Shown here: piece after piece, positions 42,569 through 53,215 of the stretch
Layout of the letters: each line of letters starts with the position of its first letter
How positions within the stretch are numbered: the stretch's first letter is position 1
The notes under the pieces: model-generated
What the model saw: the letters and a program-made list of their open reading frames with translations, nothing else
Databases searched by the model: none
Told to the model about the DNA's origin: nothing
Made by a program: the position numbers and the translations under genes
Assembly: GCA_039944855.1 (NCBI GenBank)
Contig: JBDUXZ010000029.1
Coordinates: 124,001 to 188,000 of the forward strand
DNA length: 64,000 bases
Reading direction: 5' to 3'
Source of the DNA: Rhodothermales bacterium
Lineage (GTDB): Bacteria; Bacteroidota; Rhodothermia; Rhodothermales; JANQRZ01

Positions 42569-44544
42569 TGCCCATGCCCTCCGCTCCGCTCACCTTCCCC
42601 TTCGGCCAGGAGATCGCCTGGCGGCCCGACCCCGACCAGCGCACCAACCTCCACCGCTTCATGGAGCGCGTCGGCGTGGACGATTACGACGCGCTCTGCC
42701 GGTGGGCCGTCGACGACGTCGGCCGCTTCTGGCACGCCGTGCTCGAATCGCTCGACGTGCAGTTTTACCGGCCGTACGACCGCACCCTTGACACAGCGGA
42801 GGGCATCGAGTTTCCGATGTGGTGCGTCGGCGGCGAGATGAACATCGTCCACAACCTGCTCGACAAGTGGCAGGACACGGAGGTCGCCGGGCGCGACGCA
42901 ATCCGCTACGAGAGCGAAGAAGGCGAGGTCCGCACGATGACGTACGCCGAGCTGCACCGCGAGGTGAGCCGTTGTGCCTCCGCACTCCGCGCGCTCGGGC
43001 TTGGGAAGGGCGACGCCGTCGGGCTCTACATGCCGATGACGCCGGAGATCGTCGTCGCCTTCCTCGCCGTCGCGAAGATTGGCGGCGTGATCCTTCCCCT
43101 CTTCTCGGGCTACGGCGCCCAGGCCGTCGCCACCCGCCTCGCCGACGGGGAGGCCAAAGCGCTCTTCGTGGCGAACGCCCTCGCGCGGCGCGGCCGAGCG
43201 ATCCCGATGAAACCGACCGCCGACGAAGCCCTCGCGGACGTGCCGAGCGTCGAGCACGTGATCGTCTTCGAGCACGTCCCCGGCCTCGACGTGCCGATGA
43301 CGGACGGCCGCGACCGGACATGGGACGACCTCATGGCCCTCGGCACGGACGATCCCCACGCGGTGGCGACGGAGCGCACGAGTGCCGAAGACCTCGTCAT
43401 GCTGATCTACACGAGCGGCACGACGGGCGCGCCGAAGGGCGCGGTCCACACCCACTGCGGCTTCCCGATCAAAGCGGCGCAGGACATGGCGCATCCGATG
43501 GATCTGCGCGCGGGCGACGTGATGTGGTGGATGAGCGATATGGGCTGGATGATGGGCCCGTGGCTCGTTTTCGGCACCCTCCTCAACGCCGCTACCCTCG
43601 TGCTCTTCGACGGCGCGCCCGACTACCCCGAGCCCGACCGGACGTGGGCGCTGTGCGAGCGGCACGGCGTCACCCACCTCGGTCTGAGCCCCACGCTCGT
43701 CCGCTCGCTCATGCCTCATGGCACCGAGCCCATCGCCAAGCACGACCTCAGCGCGCTCCGCGCCGTCGGCTCGACGGGCAGCCCGTGGGACCCGGAAAGC
43801 TGGACGTGGCTGTTCGAAAACGTCCTCGATTCCAGCAAGCCGATCCTCAACTACTCCGGCGGGACCGAGATCTCCGGCGGCATCGTCTGCGGCAACTTCC
43901 TCCAGCCGCTCAAGCCGTGCGCGTTCTCCGGCCCCGTCGTCGGGATGGACGCCGACGTGGTGAACGACGCGGGCGAGCCGGTGCGGGGCGAAGTCGGCGA
44001 GCTCGTGATCCGGCAGCCGTGGATCGGGATGACGCGTGGGTTCTGGGGCGACCGCGCGCGCTACCTCGACTCGTACTGGCGCCGACACCCCGCCCTCTGG
44101 ACGCACGGCGACTTCGCTGCCGTCGACGCGGACGGGCTGTGGTACATCCTCGGTCGGAGCGACGACACCATCAAAGTCGCTGGCAAGCGGCTCGGGCCGG
44201 CCGAGGTCGAGGCCGTGCTGAACGCGCACCCGGCTGTGCTAGAGAGCGCGGCGGTCGGCGTACCGCACGACATCAAAGGGCAGGAGGTCGTCGCCTTCTG
44301 CGTGCTCGCCGCCGGGCACGCGCCGAGCGAGGAACTCCGCGCCGACCTCGTCGCCCGGCTCGTGGATGCGCTCGGCAAGCCGCTGAAGCCGCGCGAGGTG
44401 AAGTTCGCGACGGCCCTCCCGAAGACGCGGAACGCGAAGGTGATGCGCCGGCTTATCCGGGCCGCCTACCTCGGCGACGCCCTCGGCGACACGACGAGCC
44501 TGGAAGAGCCGGCGGCGGTGGACGCCGTGCGTGATGCGGTGTGA
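42568..44544 (+). CDS. Acyl-CoA synthetase of the acetyl/acetoacetyl-CoA synthetase group
   Basis: A 658-residue AMP-forming enzyme. It has the P-loop-like LIYTSGTTGAPKGAVHTH near residue 280, the adenylate motif in ILNYSGGTEISGG, the hinge GRSDDTIKVAGKRLGPAEVE, and the C-terminal catalytic Lys in KTRNAKVMRRLIR, a known site of acetyl regulation in this family. It makes acyl-CoA from a short acid, CoA and ATP. The full length and N-terminal ACAS-like domain fit acetate, propionate or acetoacetate. It follows the porin gene by a one-base overlap. Tyrosine breakdown yields acetoacetate, which would suit this enzyme, but that link is inference. Confidence 0.88.
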   Translation: MPMPSAPLTFPFGQEIAWRPDPDQRTNLHRFMERVGVDDYDALCRWAVDDVGRFWHAVLESLDVQFYRPYDRTLDTAEGIEFPMWCVGGEMNIVHNLLDKWQDTEVAGRDAIRYESEEGEVRTMTYAELHREVSRCASALRALGLGKGDAVGLYMPMTPEIVVAFLAVAKIGGVILPLFSGYGAQAVATRLADGEAKALFVANALARRGRAIPMKPTADEALADVPSVEHVIVFEHVPGLDVPMTDGRDRTWDDLMALGTDDPHAVATERTSAEDLVMLIYTSGTTGAPKGAVHTHCGFPIKAAQDMAHPMDLRAGDVMWWMSDMGWMMGPWLVFGTLLNAATLVLFDGAPDYPEPDRTWALCERHGVTHLGLSPTLVRSLMPHGTEPIAKHDLSALRAVGSTGSPWDPESWTWLFENVLDSSKPILNYSGGTEISGGIVCGNFLQPLKPCAFSGPVVGMDADVVNDAGEPVRGEVGELVIRQPWIGMTRGFWGDRARYLDSYWRRHPALWTHGDFAAVDADGLWYILGRSDDTIKVAGKRLGPAEVEAVLNAHPAVLESAAVGVPHDIKGQEVVAFCVLAAGHAPSEELRADLVARLVDALGKPLKPREVKFATALPKTRNAKVMRRLIRAAYLGDALGDTTSLEEPAAVDAVRDAV

Positions 44545-44615
44545 GCGGATTGACTTGCGCAGATAGGAGGTTCTATTATCAGGGGCCGCTTCCCAATCAT
44601 CTTGCTGCGTGCCCC

Positions 44616-46055
44616 ATGTGTCTCTCTGCTCGTTTTCTACCCCTCGTTCTCCTCAACGCATTTTTTCTTGCCGCTGCACTTCCCGGATTCGCCGTGCAGG
44701 CTCAAGTCTGTCAGGGGAGTTTCGAGCTAGATACACAGGCAGAGGTAGACGCTTTCGACTGCGCGGAGGTGACGGGTAACCTGATGATCGGTGGCGTAGT
44801 GAGCTCCATCGATAGCCTCCACAGTCTAGTCTCTGTCGGAGGCACCCTTCGCCTCAGTTCAAGAGGTGGGCTGAACGACCTTGCCGGACTCGGTGCTCTC
44901 GTCTCTGCCGGAACCCTCTTCATTACGCACAATGAGTCACTCGTACACCTCAACGGCCTCACCAGCCTCTCTGAAGTGGGCAACATCCACATCTCAGGCA
45001 ACGAGGAACTTCTCGATGTGGCTGGTCTCCTCGCTCTGACCTACGTCGAGGGGGACGTCGTTATCGCGGGGAACGACGTCCTCAGCACCCTCGAAGGACT
45101 CGCTGGGCTTACCTCTGTTGGAGGGCTTCTCTCAATTAACCGCAGCAACGCGCTCTCTGACTTGGATGGGCTTCATAACATCGTGTCTGTTGGGAGCCTT
45201 ACAGTGTATGAGAGCGAGAATCTCACGAACCTTCGCGGCCTCGGTGCGCTCGCTTCGGTCGGGGAAGCCGCCTACATCTATAACAACGACGCGCTCGCTG
45301 ATCTCGGTGGACTCAACAACCTTATCGCTGTGGAGGGACTCCTCGAAATATCCTACAACAGCGCCCTCTACAGTCTCCAAGGGCTCGAATCCCTCCTCTC
45401 GATTGGGGAACTGGTCATCGAAGGCAATGGCGTACTTACCAACCTCGAGGGCCTCGATGCTCTCGCCTCAACGGACGACAATCTCATTATAACAGGTAAC
45501 GGCGCGCTCACCGATCTCGACAACCTCAACGGTCTTACCGCTATCGGGGGAAGACTCCAGATCAATGCTAACGACGCCCTTCCCCACCTCGACGGCCTCG
45601 CCAACCTCATTGCTGTAGCGGAGGGGCTCCGCGTCTTCTCGAACAACGTACTCAGTTCATGCACGGTCGGCCTCTACGATCTCCTCGCTAACGATGGCGT
45701 CGGCGGCGATATCGATATATCCAACAACGCAACTGGCTGCAATTCCGTTGAGGAGATCCTCAATTCAGTCGATGCCGAGGACGAAGCGACACCGGCCGTG
45801 ACAGCCCTCGCCGCGCCCTTTCCCAATCCCACCGCCGGGACTACCACGCTCGCCTTTACCCTCGCCGAGCTCGCCGACGTCCGCCTCACCGTCTACGACG
45901 CACTCGGCCGCCGCGTGGCGACGCTCGCCGATGGACCTCACGCATCGGGCACGCACGAGGCGGCGTGGGGCGCGGGGCTCCCGGCGGGGACGTACGTCGT
46001 GCGATTCGAGACGAGCGAGGAAGCGTGGACCGAGCGCGTGACGCTCGTCCGCTAG
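44616..46055 (+). CDS. T9SS-exported receptor-L-domain/leucine-rich-like repeat protein
   Basis: A 479-residue exported protein with signal peptide (to FAVQAQ), about thirteen repeats of about 24 residues (pattern GN-x-x-L-x-x-L-x-G-L-x-x-L-x-x-V-x-G-x-L-x-I), and a type A sorting domain (APFPNPTAGTTTLAFTL, LTVYDALGRRVATL, GTYVVRFETS, ending VTLVR). The repeats match receptor L-domain or LRR-like surface proteins used in binding. The repeat part has lower GC (29 of 60 at line 45301 by my count) than the sorting domain (45 of 60 at 45901). The ATG at 44616 begins the leader. It starts 71 bases after the synthetase stop. Confidence 0.82.
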   Translation: MCLSARFLPLVLLNAFFLAAALPGFAVQAQVCQGSFELDTQAEVDAFDCAEVTGNLMIGGVVSSIDSLHSLVSVGGTLRLSSRGGLNDLAGLGALVSAGTLFITHNESLVHLNGLTSLSEVGNIHISGNEELLDVAGLLALTYVEGDVVIAGNDVLSTLEGLAGLTSVGGLLSINRSNALSDLDGLHNIVSVGSLTVYESENLTNLRGLGALASVGEAAYIYNNDALADLGGLNNLIAVEGLLEISYNSALYSLQGLESLLSIGELVIEGNGVLTNLEGLDALASTDDNLIITGNGALTDLDNLNGLTAIGGRLQINANDALPHLDGLANLIAVAEGLRVFSNNVLSSCTVGLYDLLANDGVGGDIDISNNATGCNSVEEILNSVDAEDEATPAVTALAAPFPNPTAGTTTLAFTLAELADVRLTVYDALGRRVATLADGPHASGTHEAAWGAGLPAGTYVVRFETSEEAWTERVTLVR

Positions 46056-46655: not shown

Positions 46656-46870
46656 GAGAGTGCTCGTAGAGGTGAGAAAATGATCCTGCTGAGGGGAAGT
46701 CCTGCTGAGGTGCTCGCCCTTACATGGCGCTTCACGCCGTCTTGTTCCTAACCCGTCATTTTCTCCCGATCCGTCTACCTGCGAAACAGTTCGTGCATCC
46801 CACCCGCGCTTATGCATCGCGGAAGGGCCCTGTAATGCCACGTGGTGTACGAACGAGCCGCCGCCTGCGT

Positions 46871-46878
46871 TACTTTCG
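46871..46878 (+). promoter_or_regulatory. Candidate -7 element (TACTTTCG) of the S8 protease gene
   Basis: Close to the Bacteroidota TAnnTTTG pattern, 52 bases before the ATG at 46931. No upstream TTG at the usual distance. Confidence 0.4.
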
Positions 46879-46930
46879 GGCGCCCACGTTGGACCGTCCA
46901 CCCGCCCGCTTTCTCCCTCCTGCTCTCCAG

Positions 46931-48634
46931 ATGACGTCGTTCCGCCCGCTCCTCGTCCTGTTCCTCGCCGCCACGCTCGTCGGCTGTTCCGCCGCGCGGG
47001 ACGTGGCAACGCCCGCGCCCACCGCCCCTGCCATCGAGAGGGTCCAGGACCCGACCGAGCCCGCCACCGAAGCTCCGTCTGCTGCGGAAGACCCGGCCCC
47101 CGCCCGCCTCGTGGCCGCCCCTCCAGCGTGGCTCGAACTCGACGAGACGGCCGACGCCGTGCGCGGCATCAGCCTTAATCAAGCGTACCGAGCGCTCGAC
47201 GGACGCACGCCGCAACGGGAGGTTATTGTCGCCGTGATCGACTCCGGCGTCGACACCACGCACGAGGACCTGCAGGGTCGCCTCTGGAGAAACGAAGACG
47301 AGATCGCCGGCAACGGCGTGGACGACGATGGGAATGGCTACGTCGACGACGTGCACGGCTGGAACTTCCTCGGCGGCCCCGATGGCGCGAACGTCTTCCA
47401 CGACACGTACGAGCTCACGCGCGAGGTCCTCCGCCTCCGCCCCCGCTATCGCGACGCCGACCCCGCTGCCCTCGATCCGGCCGGCCGCGAGGAGTACGAC
47501 TACTACCAATCGCTGGAGCGGGAGTTGGCGGCGAAGCGGGCCGAGTACGAAGCGGTCCTCCCGCAGATGCAGCAGATCGAAGAGGCCACGCAGCGCGCCG
47601 TCTCCATCCTCGAACCGACGCTCGGCAGCGGGCCGTACTCCGCTGAGAAGCTGGAGCCCGGCATGCTCGACACCCCCGCCGTGCTTCAGGCGAAGGGCCT
47701 CGTGAGCTACCTCCTCCAGTCCGGGTTCACGCCGGCCGACATCACGCAGCAGCGGATCCAGGTCGCGAACATGCTGAAGTACGGCTACAACCTCGAATTC
47801 GACCCCCGCCCCGTCGTCGGCGACGATTACGACGACACGAACGAGCGCTACTACGGCAACGGCGATGTGACGGGGCCGTACCCGAACCACGGCACATCGG
47901 TCGCCGGCGTGATCGCGGCGATCCGGGGGAACGAGGCAGGGACGCGCGGCGTCGCGCCGGACACGCTCGTCTACGTCATGCCCATTCGCGCCGTGCCGAG
48001 CGGCGACGAGCGCGACAAAGACGTGGCGAACGCGATCCGCTACGCCGTCGACAACGGCGCGCTCGTCGTCAACATGAGCTTCGGCAAATCCTATTCGCCC
48101 GACAAAGACGCCGTCGACGCGGCCGTGCGCTACGCCGAGGAGCGCGGCGTCCTCCTCGTCCACGCCGCCGGCAACAGCGCCGAAGACATCGACCGCGCCG
48201 CCAACTTCCCCTCCCAGGTCCTCAGCGACGGAGCGCGCGCGAGCAACTGGCTCGAAGTCGGCGCGTCGTCGTGGGACCCTGACGCCTTCGCCGCCTCGTT
48301 CAGTAACTACGGCGTCACGAACGTCGACCTCTTCGCGCCCGGCGAGGCCATCGACGTGCTCGAACCGGCGAACGCGACGACGCGCGTGGACGGAACGAGC
48401 GTCGCCGCCCCCGTCGTGAGCGGCATCGCGGCCCTCCTGCTGAGCTACTACCCGGACCTCTCGCCGCTCGACGTGCGCGAGATCCTCCTCGAATCGGCCG
48501 TGCCGTACCGCGGCGTGCCGGCGATCCGGCCGGGCTCGGGCGATGAGGTGGACTTCGCGACGCTCTCGGTCACCGGTGCCGTCGTCAACGCGTGGCGCGC
48601 CGTCGAACTCGCCGACACCCGAGTGGGGAATTAA
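46931..48634 (+). CDS. S8 (subtilisin-like) protease lipoprotein with large Asp-His insertion
   Basis: A 567-residue lipoprotein (lipobox Cys in AATLVGCSAA) with a Pro/Ala/Glu-rich linker and an S8 domain. The triad is Asp104 (VIAVIDSGVD-like: VIDSGVDTTHEDL), His320 (PNHGTSVAGVIAAI) and Ser490 (DGTSVAAPVVSGIAA). The Asp-to-His gap is 216 residues; in subtilisin it is about 30. The extra part (about 120-310) includes GNGVDDDGNGYVDDVHGW, which may bind calcium, and a helical stretch. It likely works on the cell surface or in the periplasm. ATG at 46931 is chosen because it starts the lipoprotein leader. Confidence 0.9.
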   Translation: MTSFRPLLVLFLAATLVGCSAARDVATPAPTAPAIERVQDPTEPATEAPSAAEDPAPARLVAAPPAWLELDETADAVRGISLNQAYRALDGRTPQREVIVAVIDSGVDTTHEDLQGRLWRNEDEIAGNGVDDDGNGYVDDVHGWNFLGGPDGANVFHDTYELTREVLRLRPRYRDADPAALDPAGREEYDYYQSLERELAAKRAEYEAVLPQMQQIEEATQRAVSILEPTLGSGPYSAEKLEPGMLDTPAVLQAKGLVSYLLQSGFTPADITQQRIQVANMLKYGYNLEFDPRPVVGDDYDDTNERYYGNGDVTGPYPNHGTSVAGVIAAIRGNEAGTRGVAPDTLVYVMPIRAVPSGDERDKDVANAIRYAVDNGALVVNMSFGKSYSPDKDAVDAAVRYAEERGVLLVHAAGNSAEDIDRAANFPSQVLSDGARASNWLEVGASSWDPDAFAASFSNYGVTNVDLFAPGEAIDVLEPANATTRVDGTSVAAPVVSGIAALLLSYYPDLSPLDVREILLESAVPYRGVPAIRPGSGDEVDFATLSVTGAVVNAWRAVELADTRVGN

Positions 48635-48650
48635 GGCCGAAGGACCACCT

Positions 48651-48679
48651 CGCGAGGGACGGAGTCTGAGCCCCTCGCG
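48651..48679. terminator. Hairpin after the S8 protease gene
   Basis: CGCGAGGG (48651-48658) and CCCTCGCG (48672-48679) with a 13-base loop. No T-tract, so it is only a possible terminator. It lies in the 134-base gap before the rhodopsin gene. Confidence 0.35.
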
Positions 48680-48768
48680 CGGGACTGCGGAGAAACATCG
48701 CGGAGCGCGGGGCGTCAGTGCCCGTCACGTCTCGCGCTCCCCGTCTCCTCTCCTCTGCCGCCCCTCCG

Positions 48769-49494
48769 ATGGATCTCTCCACGACCCTCCACTTCGTCTA
48801 CGTTGCCTGCATGGCGGGCGGGGCGCTCCTCTTCCTCGCGTGGATGCGCGACCCGCGCGGCGTGCCGACGTGGGAATACCTCGTCGCCACCATCATCCCC
48901 GTCTGGTCGGGGCTGGCCTACCTCGCGATGGCGCTCGGGCTCGGCACCGTCGAAGTCGCGGGGCAGACGACGTACTGGGCGCGCTACGCCGACTGGGTGG
49001 TGACGACGCCGCTCCTGCTCGTCGCCCTGTGGATGACGGCCACGACGCGGACCGACAAGCGCCCGCACGTCCCCACGCTCCTCACCCTCGTTACTGCGGA
49101 CGTGGTGATGATCCTGTGCGGGCTCGTGGGCGACCTCTCGACGGGGCCGGCGCGCTACGTCTTCTTCGCCGTCGGCGTCGGCGCGCTCGTGCTCATCTTC
49201 TGGACCGTATTCGGGCCGCTCCGCCGCGTCGCAGGCCACGACGCCGAGGTCGCCGACGTCTACGGGAAGGTGGCCGTCTACCTCGCGCTCTTCTGGGTCG
49301 GCTACCCGCTGACGTGGATCCTCGGCCCCTCCGGCTTGGGCGTGGTCGGGCAGACGACGGACACGGTGCTCTTCGTGCTCCTCCCGGTCTTTTCGAAGGT
49401 CGGATTCAGCATCCTCGACCTCGGGCTGCTCCGGCGGATCGGCGGCGAGCCGGGCCGTGACGCCGTCCGGCCGAGCCTCTCCCCCGTCGTCTGA
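48769..49494 (+). CDS. Xenorhodopsin (candidate inward proton pump)
   Basis: A 241-residue seven-helix retinal protein. Helix C reads RYADWVVTTPLLLVA, with Arg72, the counter-ion Asp75, Thr79 and Ala86 at the place of bacteriorhodopsin Asp96. Helix G reads LLPVFSKVGFSILDL, with retinal Lys210 and Pro206 where outward pumps have Asp212. Asp217, seven residues after the Lys, matches the cytoplasmic acceptor of Anabaena sensory rhodopsin and xenorhodopsins. Helix F has WVGYPLTW. This set defines the xenorhodopsin/ASR clade, and characterised xenorhodopsins pump H+ inward. Leu at position 83 suggests green absorption. The ATG at 48769 lies just before helix A; a GTG at 48718 would add a charged leader. 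No retinal-making gene or transducer is adjacent. Confidence 0.93.
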   Translation: MDLSTTLHFVYVACMAGGALLFLAWMRDPRGVPTWEYLVATIIPVWSGLAYLAMALGLGTVEVAGQTTYWARYADWVVTTPLLLVALWMTATTRTDKRPHVPTLLTLVTADVVMILCGLVGDLSTGPARYVFFAVGVGALVLIFWTVFGPLRRVAGHDAEVADVYGKVAVYLALFWVGYPLTWILGPSGLGVVGQTTDTVLFVLLPVFSKVGFSILDLGLLRRIGGEPGRDAVRPSLSPVV

Positions 49495-49552: not shown

Positions 49553-49987
49553 TCATCCGCCGACGATCTCTTCGAGCGTGATCTCGAACGTGAGGTCTTG
49601 GCCAGCGAGCTCGTGGTTCGCGTCGAGGATGACTTCGTCGTCGGCGATCTCGGTGACGCGGACGACGACGGCCTGCCCGTCGGGCTGGCTGAGCTGGAGC
49701 TGCTGGCCGATCTCGGGCTCCATCCCGTCGGGGAACTGGTCGGGGCTGACGCTCAGCATCATCTCCTCACGCAACGGGCCGTAGGCTTTCTCCGCCGGGA
49801 TCTCGACGGTCTGCGTCTCGCCGGGCTTCATGCCCTCGACGGCGCTGTCGAAGCCGGGGATCACCTGCCCGACGCCAACGGTGAACTCGAGCGGGCCGCG
49901 CCCTTCGGAGGAATCGAACACGGACCCGTCGGAGAGGGTGCCGGTGTAGTGGATGCGGACGGTGTCGCCTGCGGTTGCCTGTGCCAT
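49553..49987 (-). CDS. FKBP-type peptidyl-prolyl isomerase (SlyD-like)
   Basis: A 144-residue cytoplasmic protein with the FKBP core (VRIHYTGTLSDGSVFDSS, GVGQVIPGFDSAVEGM, IPAEKAYGP) and, after it, an insert-in-flap domain (FPDGMEPEIGQQLQL through DANHELAGQDLTFEI) as in SlyD. It helps proteins fold by isomerising prolyl bonds. It lacks the His-rich metal tail of E. coli SlyD. It follows the BI-1 gene on the same strand after a 99-base gap that holds a hairpin. Confidence 0.93.
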   Translation of the reverse strand: MAQATAGDTVRIHYTGTLSDGSVFDSSEGRGPLEFTVGVGQVIPGFDSAVEGMKPGETQTVEIPAEKAYGPLREEMMLSVSPDQFPDGMEPEIGQQLQLSQPDGQAVVVRVTEIADDEVILDANHELAGQDLTFEITLEEIVGG

Positions 49988-51659: not shown

Positions 51660-51670
51660 AGAGTGCTATG

Positions 51671-51797
51671 CCCCCCTCTGAGGGGGGCGACTAGGCCCGT
51701 TTGCGGGGCGAGCGGGGGGTCCGCAGCGTTCGAGGAGCCCGATGCGGTCGCGTCGAGCGAGGCGGACCCCCACCTGTCCTCCCCCTCCGAGGGGGAG
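51671..51797. repeat. Compound palindromic element with three hairpins
   Basis: Within the 359-base gap between two genes. Hairpin 1 is CCCCCCT-CTG-AGGGGGG at 51671-51687. A longer inverted pair GGGGGTCCGC (51715-51724) and GCGGACCCCC (51762-51771) is in the centre. Hairpin 2 is CTCCCC-CTCCGAG-GGGGAG at 51779-51797. An imperfect direct repeat AGCGTTCGAG...CCCGA occurs near 51725 and 51811. It has no coding sign. Confidence 0.7.
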
Positions 51798-51887
51798 GGA
51801 CGCGATCCCGAAGCGTTCGAGAGGGCCCGACTGGTTGAAGTCCACTGCACGCTTTATGCAATTCCGCCAACCCACTCCACTCCCTCT

Positions 51888-51992
51888 GTCATTGCGAGCG
51901 ACCGGAGGGAGCGCGGCAATCTCCCGATTCCAGCAGACCGCAGGAGATTGCCGCGTCGCTACGGGACGAGTCCCTGCGCTCCTCGCAATGAC
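51888..51992. repeat. Palindromic element, GTCATTGCGAG family (copy 1)
   Basis: A 105-base element with outer arms GTCATTGCGAG (51888-51898) and CTCGCAATGAC (51982-51992), and inner arms GCGGCAATCTCC (51913-51924) and GGAGATTGCCGC (51943-51954). A second copy is at 56387-56469. The gap 51660-52018 contains this, the compound element before it, and nothing gene-like. Confidence 0.85.
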
Positions 51993-52018
51993 ATGGTGGA
52001 AGGGTTTGTTCAGCTTTT

Positions 52019-53215
52019 CTAAACTCCGAACCGCTGCGCGTCGAAGAGATCGGTGAAGGGGTCCGATTGCCCGAGGAGGGTGGCGGCGACGAGGCGGCCC
52101 ATCCGAAACCCGTAGCCCATCCCGTGGCCGGTGAAGCCGCCCACCCAGAGGCTGCCCGCTACGCCCGGTACCGCGCCGAACGCGGGCAGCCCGTCGGCCG
52201 AGAACCCCATCGTCCCGCTCCACCGGCGCGCGACGGGCGCGTCGGCGAAAGCAGGGAAGTGATCGCGGAGGTACGCTTCGAGATCGGCTTGCAGCGGGGC
52301 CGTCGTCGCGTCGTCGTAGCCGACTTCGGCGGCGCGGTGGCGGTGGCGCGCGCCGCCAAGCAGGACTTCGCCCGTGGCGAGTTGGCGGAGGTAGAAATAG
52401 CCTTCGTGGGAGTAGACCGGTGCGGCGAGCCGGTGCGGAAGCGGGGCCGTCGCGAGCATCTGTGCTCGGATCGGGCGGACGAACCGGGCGAGGTCGGGGA
52501 CGAACTGCGGGAGGTACGCGTTCAGCGCGAGGACGGCGTGCCCGGCATCGAGCGTCCCGCCATCCGTCACGACCCGCACGCCGGAATCGACGGACTCGAT
52601 GCGCTCGACGCTGCATCCCTCCACCACCTGCGCCCCGCTCCGCTCGGCGAGGGTTCGCACTGTGCGGACCGGGTGCAGCATCGCCCCGCTCTCAACGTGC
52701 AGCGCACCGAAAAACCCGACGCTGCCGAGCCGCGCGTTCGTCTCCTCGGACGAGAGGTAGTGCACCGCCACGCCGCGCGCTCGCAGCAGGTCCGCAGCGC
52801 GACGGAGCCGGTCGTCCTCCATCTCATCGCCCGCCACGGAGAAGCTGCCTGAAGCCGCCAGCCCAACGCCTGCACCCGCGACCGCATCGACGAGCACGTC
52901 GCGGTTCTCCTGCGTGAACTGCCAGAGCCGCCACGCCGCCTCGGGGCCGCGTTCGTCGGCGGTGCGGGCGAAGTCGGCGTCGGTGCCTTGCAACAGGAAG
53001 CCGGCGTTGCGGCCGCTCGCGCCGTGCGCCAGCCGCTCGCGCTCCACGATCACCACGTCGAGATTCGCATCGAGTTGCCGGAGCCAGTACGCCGTCGAGA
53101 CGCCCGCGATACCGCCGCCGATTACAGCCACGTCGCACCGCGCAGGCAGGGCGTTGGTCGAGGGCTCGGCGCGCGCGTCGGTCTGCCAGTGCGAGGTGGT
53201 CGCTGTGGCCGTCAC
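52019..53215 (-). CDS. FAD-dependent amino-acid/glycine oxidase-type (DAO) oxidoreductase
   Basis: A 398-residue flavoprotein of the DAO family. The FAD motif is near residue 28 (VAVIGGGIAGVSTAYWL), followed by GASGRNAGFLLQG, where the Asn-Ala-Gly loop contacts flavin. The C-terminal VGGFTGHGMGYGFRMGRLVA is the second FAD motif. It resembles gamma-glutamylputrescine or glycine oxidase types, acting on an amine or amino acid. The GTG at 53215 is chosen because it overlaps the YhdH stop as GTGA, meaning translational coupling. The longer upstream frame runs antisense-like through the YhdH gene and is rejected. Confidence 0.85.
   Translation of the reverse strand: MTATATTSHWQTDARAEPSTNALPARCDVAVIGGGIAGVSTAYWLRQLDANLDVVIVERERLAHGASGRNAGFLLQGTDADFARTADERGPEAAWRLWQFTQENRDVLVDAVAGAGVGLAASGSFSVAGDEMEDDRLRRAADLLRARGVAVHYLSSEETNARLGSVGFFGALHVESGAMLHPVRTVRTLAERSGAQVVEGCSVERIESVDSGVRVVTDGGTLDAGHAVLALNAYLPQFVPDLARFVRPIRAQMLATAPLPHRLAAPVYSHEGYFYLRQLATGEVLLGGARHRHRAAEVGYDDATTAPLQADLEAYLRDHFPAFADAPVARRWSGTMGFSADGLPAFGAVPGVAGSLWVGGFTGHGMGYGFRMGRLVAATLLGQSDPFTDLFDAQRFGV

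Follow-up and report, generated by a model that had tools for sequence, protein, structure and literature searches.

The gene studied here forms an intact open reading frame within the window, i.e. the whole 64,000 nucleotide stretch of Rhodothermales DNA that was analysed, and encodes 241 aa when counted from its ATG (Table 1). In the alignment this ATG falls on Met1 of Anabaena sensory rhodopsin (ASR); an in-frame GTG located 51 bp further upstream, at 48718, is an alternative start. The 241-aa protein matched the Pfam family PF01036 with an E-value of 5e-53 and 180 bits, the cut-off being 24.6 bits. For the flanks the original prediction, made from the letters alone, had named a surface protease and a chaperone, with neither a transducer nor a retinal gene adjacent. 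This agrees with the S8 subtilase and the FKBP-type isomerase that we found on either side. The intergenic stretch in front of the rhodopsin gene gave no promoter or terminator call, and its fold was not beyond that of shuffled sequences (z -1.1). Elsewhere in the window, a secreted leucine-rich-repeat-like protein with a weak Por-type C-terminal sorting tail is encoded at 44541-46055, and mechanical translations of about 51660-52060, after an acyl-ACP thioesterase, resemble common interspersed repeats rather than genes.

Table 1. Features at the xenorhodopsin locus (window coordinates).
Feature	Position	Strand	Basis
S8 subtilase, lipoprotein-like signal, start codon uncertain; upstream neighbour	46724..48634	+	Pfam
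Upstream intergenic stretch, 134 bp, GC-rich	48635..48768	+	sequence scan
Xenorhodopsin gene, 241 aa	48769..49494	+	PF01036, PDB matches, tree, AlphaFold
Asp75 codon, Schiff-base counterion	48991..48993	+	aligned to ASR D75 / PoXeR D74
Asp111 codon, corresponds to PoXeR Asp108, Gln109 in ASR	49099..49101	+	alignment, mutant data (PMC5118547)
Pro206 codon, replaces BR Asp212, xenorhodopsin hallmark	49384..49386	+	alignment
Lys210 codon, retinal Schiff-base lysine	49396..49398	+	alignment
Asp217 codon, putative cytoplasmic proton acceptor, corresponds to PoXeR Asp216	49417..49419	+	alignment, PMC5118547
FKBP-type peptidyl-prolyl isomerase, downstream neighbour, convergent	49553..49987	-	Pfam

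When the locus was compared with those of the two closest orthologues (genomes G176 and G178), the rhodopsin was the only gene in common with the window and neither neighbour was shared, such that the locus has no conserved partner gene. Against these orthologues the gene showed dN/dS values of about 0.11 and 0.21, indicative of purifying selection; they were obtained with the Nei-Gojobori method over 110 codons and are averages over branches, which a very recent relaxation could escape. The GC content of the gene is 70.2% (68.7% for the window), and its GC3 of 0.95 lies towards the top of the values for genes in the window. We therefore saw no clear sign of a foreign origin and rejected horizontal transfer on grounds of odd composition. 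Carriage on a plasmid was rejected as well, the plasmid matches being distant rhodopsins only, with at most 37% identity.

Both sequence and predicted structure place the protein among the xenorhodopsins (XeRs). The best sequence matches in the PDB were ASR (1e-63) and the XeR of Bacillus coahuilensis, BcXeR (1.4e-61), followed at 4e-27 by the next rhodopsin; no other rhodopsin comes within 110 bits of either. The AlphaFold model (pLDDT 93.1) consists of seven long helices. Used as a Foldseek query, it returned BcXeR chains (7zmy) as all of the top ten matches at an rmsd of 0.7–0.8 Å, and ASR in second place (1.3–1.7). The seven helices and the retinal-binding Lys210 in helix G are those of a microbial (type 1) rhodopsin. 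Within this superfamily, xenorhodopsins are set apart by a Pro that replaces BR Asp212 in helix G and by the lack of an acid at the position of BR Asp96 (PMC3198991). Our protein carries Pro206 at the former site and Ala86, thus no acidic donor, at the latter.

In a tree of 71 rows, from which the Nanosalina XeR (NsXeR) was absent, the XeR/ASR set split from the other rhodopsins with support of 99/97. The protein falls inside this set, where the original prediction had expected it. There it forms one group (100/96) with two Rhodothermia orthologues of 73–75% identity, L002 from G178 and L003 from G176. The group is sister to XeRs from Micromonospora (98/92). Four of the latter (L122, L124, L125 and L132) have Ser instead of the hallmark Pro206, together with Asn111 and Trp213, and show weak Blh-like matches shortly downstream. 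G176 contains two rhodopsins, one XeR and a more distant one. Since the published draft of Rubricoccus marinus SG-29 likewise holds two, L003 can with high probability be equated with RmXeR, whose inward H+ pumping has been characterised (PMC7704677); this supports the proposed kinship with a Rubricoccus pump. Judged from its sequence, which is well conserved, the protein appears to belong to the xenorhodopsin inward-pump group and to be ordinary for its family.

The residues on which the original prediction was built, Asp75, Thr79, Ala86, Pro206, Lys210 and Asp217, were all found at the ASR numbering. Helix B was also correctly described as free of His: Ala40 occupies the site of NsXeR His48, which is equivalent to BcXeR Ala38 (PMC13093656). 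What did not hold was the reading of these residues as a complete inward-pump set. Wild-type ASR is not a pump (PMC5118547), yet it departs from this set only at position 86, where it has Ser. As these residues recur almost completely in ASR and its relatives, the set cannot separate pumps from sensors. In our alignment Asp75 is invariant (85/85 XeR/ASR sequences), and Ala86 also occurs in 35 of the 53 cyanobacterial homologues; the proven pump PoXeR of Parvularcula oceani has Leu86.

A more telling position is Asp111, which was missing from the predicted set and which we suggest as the better pump marker. Mutation of each of four carboxylates in PoXeR (E35, D74, D108 and D216) impaired pumping (PMC5118547), and all four are kept in our protein as Glu36, Asp75, Asp111 and Asp217. 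At position 111 the non-cyanobacterial xenorhodopsins have Asp in 28 of 32 cases, ours included, and Asn in the remaining 4/32. Their cyanobacterial counterparts have Gln in 52 of 53, among them all five that adjoin a gene for ASRT. Being a clade marker as well as possibly functional, Asp111 supports pumping without proving it. Pumping cannot be read from the sequence with certainty, because ASR is about 50% identical, has the same core and, as wild type, does not pump. Within the cyanobacteria we observed two ASR homologues of Cyanobacteria bacterium FACHB-63 (L084 and L085) with a natural Glu217, equivalent to the ASR mutation D217E that creates inward H+ transport (PMC5118547). Oculatella sp. 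LEGE 06141 was found to possess two XeR-type genes (L059 and L123), one pump-like with Asp111 and basal to the cyanobacterial clade, the other ASR-like with Gln111.

The genome that carries the gene (G000; 4.6 Mb, 41 contigs, 97.9% complete) encodes a single rhodopsin in a genome-wide search. Neither Blh/Brp nor an RPE65-type oxygenase was found genome-wide, which extends the predicted absence of a retinal gene next to the rhodopsin to the whole assembled genome. As control, the same search detected Blh in 99 of 245 genomes of the class; 104 of the 245 have a rhodopsin, and Blh turned up in 95 of these. Of the nine rhodopsin genomes that remain, two, G000 and G130, reach a completeness of 97% or more. 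G130, listed as 100% complete, is thereby another candidate for a non-canonical retinal route. Conversely, G055, G183, G189 and G201 have Blh and no rhodopsin match, two of them being only 62% complete. Carotenoid genes are present in G000: phytoene synthase crtB lies on C24 next to a CruF-type carotenoid gene, and a two-sequence profile detected a CrtYcd lycopene cyclase at C20:88411-89106. The profiles PF05834 and PF18916 had given no family-level match to a lycopene cyclase in G000, and the early idea that only acyclic carotenoids are made was overturned by this more sensitive search. With the cyclase present and both Blh and RPE65-type enzymes absent, a cyclic carotenoid is probably made for which no known cleaving enzyme is encoded. 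Contigs C29, C11, C20 and C24 have matching compositions.

Regarding a transducer, the predicted absence held for the locus and failed for the genome. A homologue of ASRT, a signalling protein that binds a cyanobacterial rhodopsin, is encoded at C11:30510-30866 (L047:9510-9866; PF07100, 3.5e-51), on a different contig from the xenorhodopsin and thus unlinked to it and outside its operon. It is of the Anabaena type, scoring 191 bits to Anabaena ASRT and 59 bits to Thermotoga TM1070. Its neighbours are an ECF sigma factor, an ABC-F gene, glgC and a glycogen debranching enzyme. In the 80 named loci, ASRT adjoins the XeR gene five times, on each occasion in a cyanobacterium; a search of 45 other XeR genomes found it in 6. 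Outside the cyanobacteria the two occur together in Parapontixanthobacter, Metabacillus litoralis and Micromonospora maritima, such that a claim from 2011 (PMC3198991), by which ASRT had been found in no xenorhodopsin genome but that of Nostoc, no longer holds; even so, the combination is not the rule.

Taken as a whole, we consider it probable that the protein is an inward proton pump, that the influx serves light signalling or pH control, and that retinal is imported or provided by an enzyme other than those known to form it. The inward-pump chemistry of the original prediction is thus upheld as the best guess. Transport is assigned by analogy to the 73–75% identical orthologues, probably including RmXeR, and to PoXeR and BcXeR. 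In the mechanism that we envisage, all-trans retinal bound to Lys210 would isomerise upon illumination. As Pro206 replaces the second counterion, Asp75 would hold the Schiff-base proton only weakly, and the proton could leave to the cytoplasmic side towards Asp217, whose pKa would be tuned by Glu36. The Schiff base would then be re-protonated from outside, possibly with the help of Asp111. Retinal may enter by uptake or be produced by an enzyme acting on the cyclic carotenoids for which the cell appears to be equipped. As no outward rhodopsin pump is encoded in the genome, no second rhodopsin could balance the influx, which is more likely to act as a light signal or a local pH change than in energy capture; this presumably defines its physiological role.

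Other readings have to be weighed against the inward pump. That the protein is an ordinary outward proton pump, with which it shares fold and superfamily, is hardly credible given the Pro at the BR Asp212 site, the Ala at the BR Asp96 site and the position inside the XeR clade (99/97). The protein could instead be a light sensor whose signal passes chiefly to the unlinked ASRT, in line with the proposal for ASR in Anabaena, while net pumping in the cell is slight or nil; this reading has more in its favour and is still unlikely. ASRT was found in only 3 of 245 genomes of the class (G000, G180 and G189) and that of G000 is of the Anabaena type; moreover, the linkage of ASRT to XeR in some loci and their co-occurrence in further genomes fit a sensor. 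With three XeR and three ASRT genomes among 245, at least one overlap would arise by chance with a probability of about 0.036, a value that counts for little because several candidate partners were looked at. On the other hand, no ASRT was found in the sister XeR genomes G176 and G178 (96–97% complete), which leaves the coupling weakly supported, and no XeR was found in G180 and G189. Furthermore, glgC and the debranching enzyme beside ASRT fit the sugar-linked role proposed for its family (PMC2739507), and the ASRT-linked cyanobacterial rhodopsins have Gln instead of Asp at position 111. A second rhodopsin of G180 (an assembly of 750 contigs), considered as a possible XeR, was rejected: L138:4640-5311 (G180:C709) is halorhodopsin-like and broken up by what look like frame shifts, which could reflect faulty sequencing or a pseudogene. 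A combined scheme, in which a pump-type XeR signals through proton entry coupled to an unlinked Anabaena-type ASRT outside the cyanobacteria, and a novel, non-Blh enzyme supplies retinal in the same cell, appears very unlikely.

Two further alternatives concern the chromophore. Retinal supply may be entirely ordinary, with blh lost in an assembly gap, a reading that would leave inward pumping untouched. The assembly does consist of 41 contigs at 97.9% completeness, and a crtYcd copy adjoins blh in G164, G176 and G178, such that a single gap might account for the loss of the entire cassette. Yet only about 2% of the genome is expected to be missing, and the lycopene cyclase was found with no Blh within 10 kb. 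This CrtYcd groups weakly (78/89) with a paralogue that is not blh-linked in the relatives, and in the family member G163 both blh and a rhodopsin are missing. We thus regard a gap as improbable. If there were no retinal in the cell, the protein would be dark, and the lack of a known retinal gene may be taken to indicate an unused or dying gene that yields apoprotein without chromophore. This is very unlikely for an intact frame that has kept all functional residues at a dN/dS of about 0.1–0.2 against both orthologues.

The gene bears on the wider question of why a pump that moves protons inwards is retained by bacteria. As the sole rhodopsin of its genome the xenorhodopsin cannot belong to a set with an outward pump. 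The genome also encodes ASRT as a candidate soluble partner and raises the puzzle of where retinal comes from; a cultured relative would make both testable. What is unusual here is the genomic setting of the protein: a sole rhodopsin, no known retinal gene found and an unlinked ASRT.

A rhodopsin without blh has precedents in Aurantimicrobium minutum and Rhodoluna lacicola, the former also lacking diox1; Rhodoluna depends on retinal being supplied, whereas Aurantimicrobium forms it by an unknown route (PMC7734400). These are however Actinobacteria, and A. minutum pumps protons with a xanthorhodopsin-like protein rather than a xenorhodopsin. ASR has about 50% identity to our protein, the same core residues and a transducer with a homologue in G000; it differs by Ser86 and Gln109 in place of Ala86 and Asp111, and by the linkage of ASRT. 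BcXeR provides the closest solved fold (rmsd 0.7) and likewise has Ala at the His48 site, but is only 49% identical and carries Ser at 79 and Glu at 198. PoXeR (L057; 53–54% identity) shares Glu36, Asp75, Asp111, Pro206 and Asp217, whereas it has Leu at position 86, belongs to a separate clade with Erythrobacteraceae and comes from an organism with three rhodopsins (PMC5118547). The closest counterpart is RmXeR, which is probably L003. Its genome, if G176, contains a second rhodopsin and a crtYcd-blh cassette, in contrast to G000, while the protein itself belongs to the same clade (100/96), lies within the 73–75% identity of the orthologues and shares the key residues, including Ala86 and Asp111.
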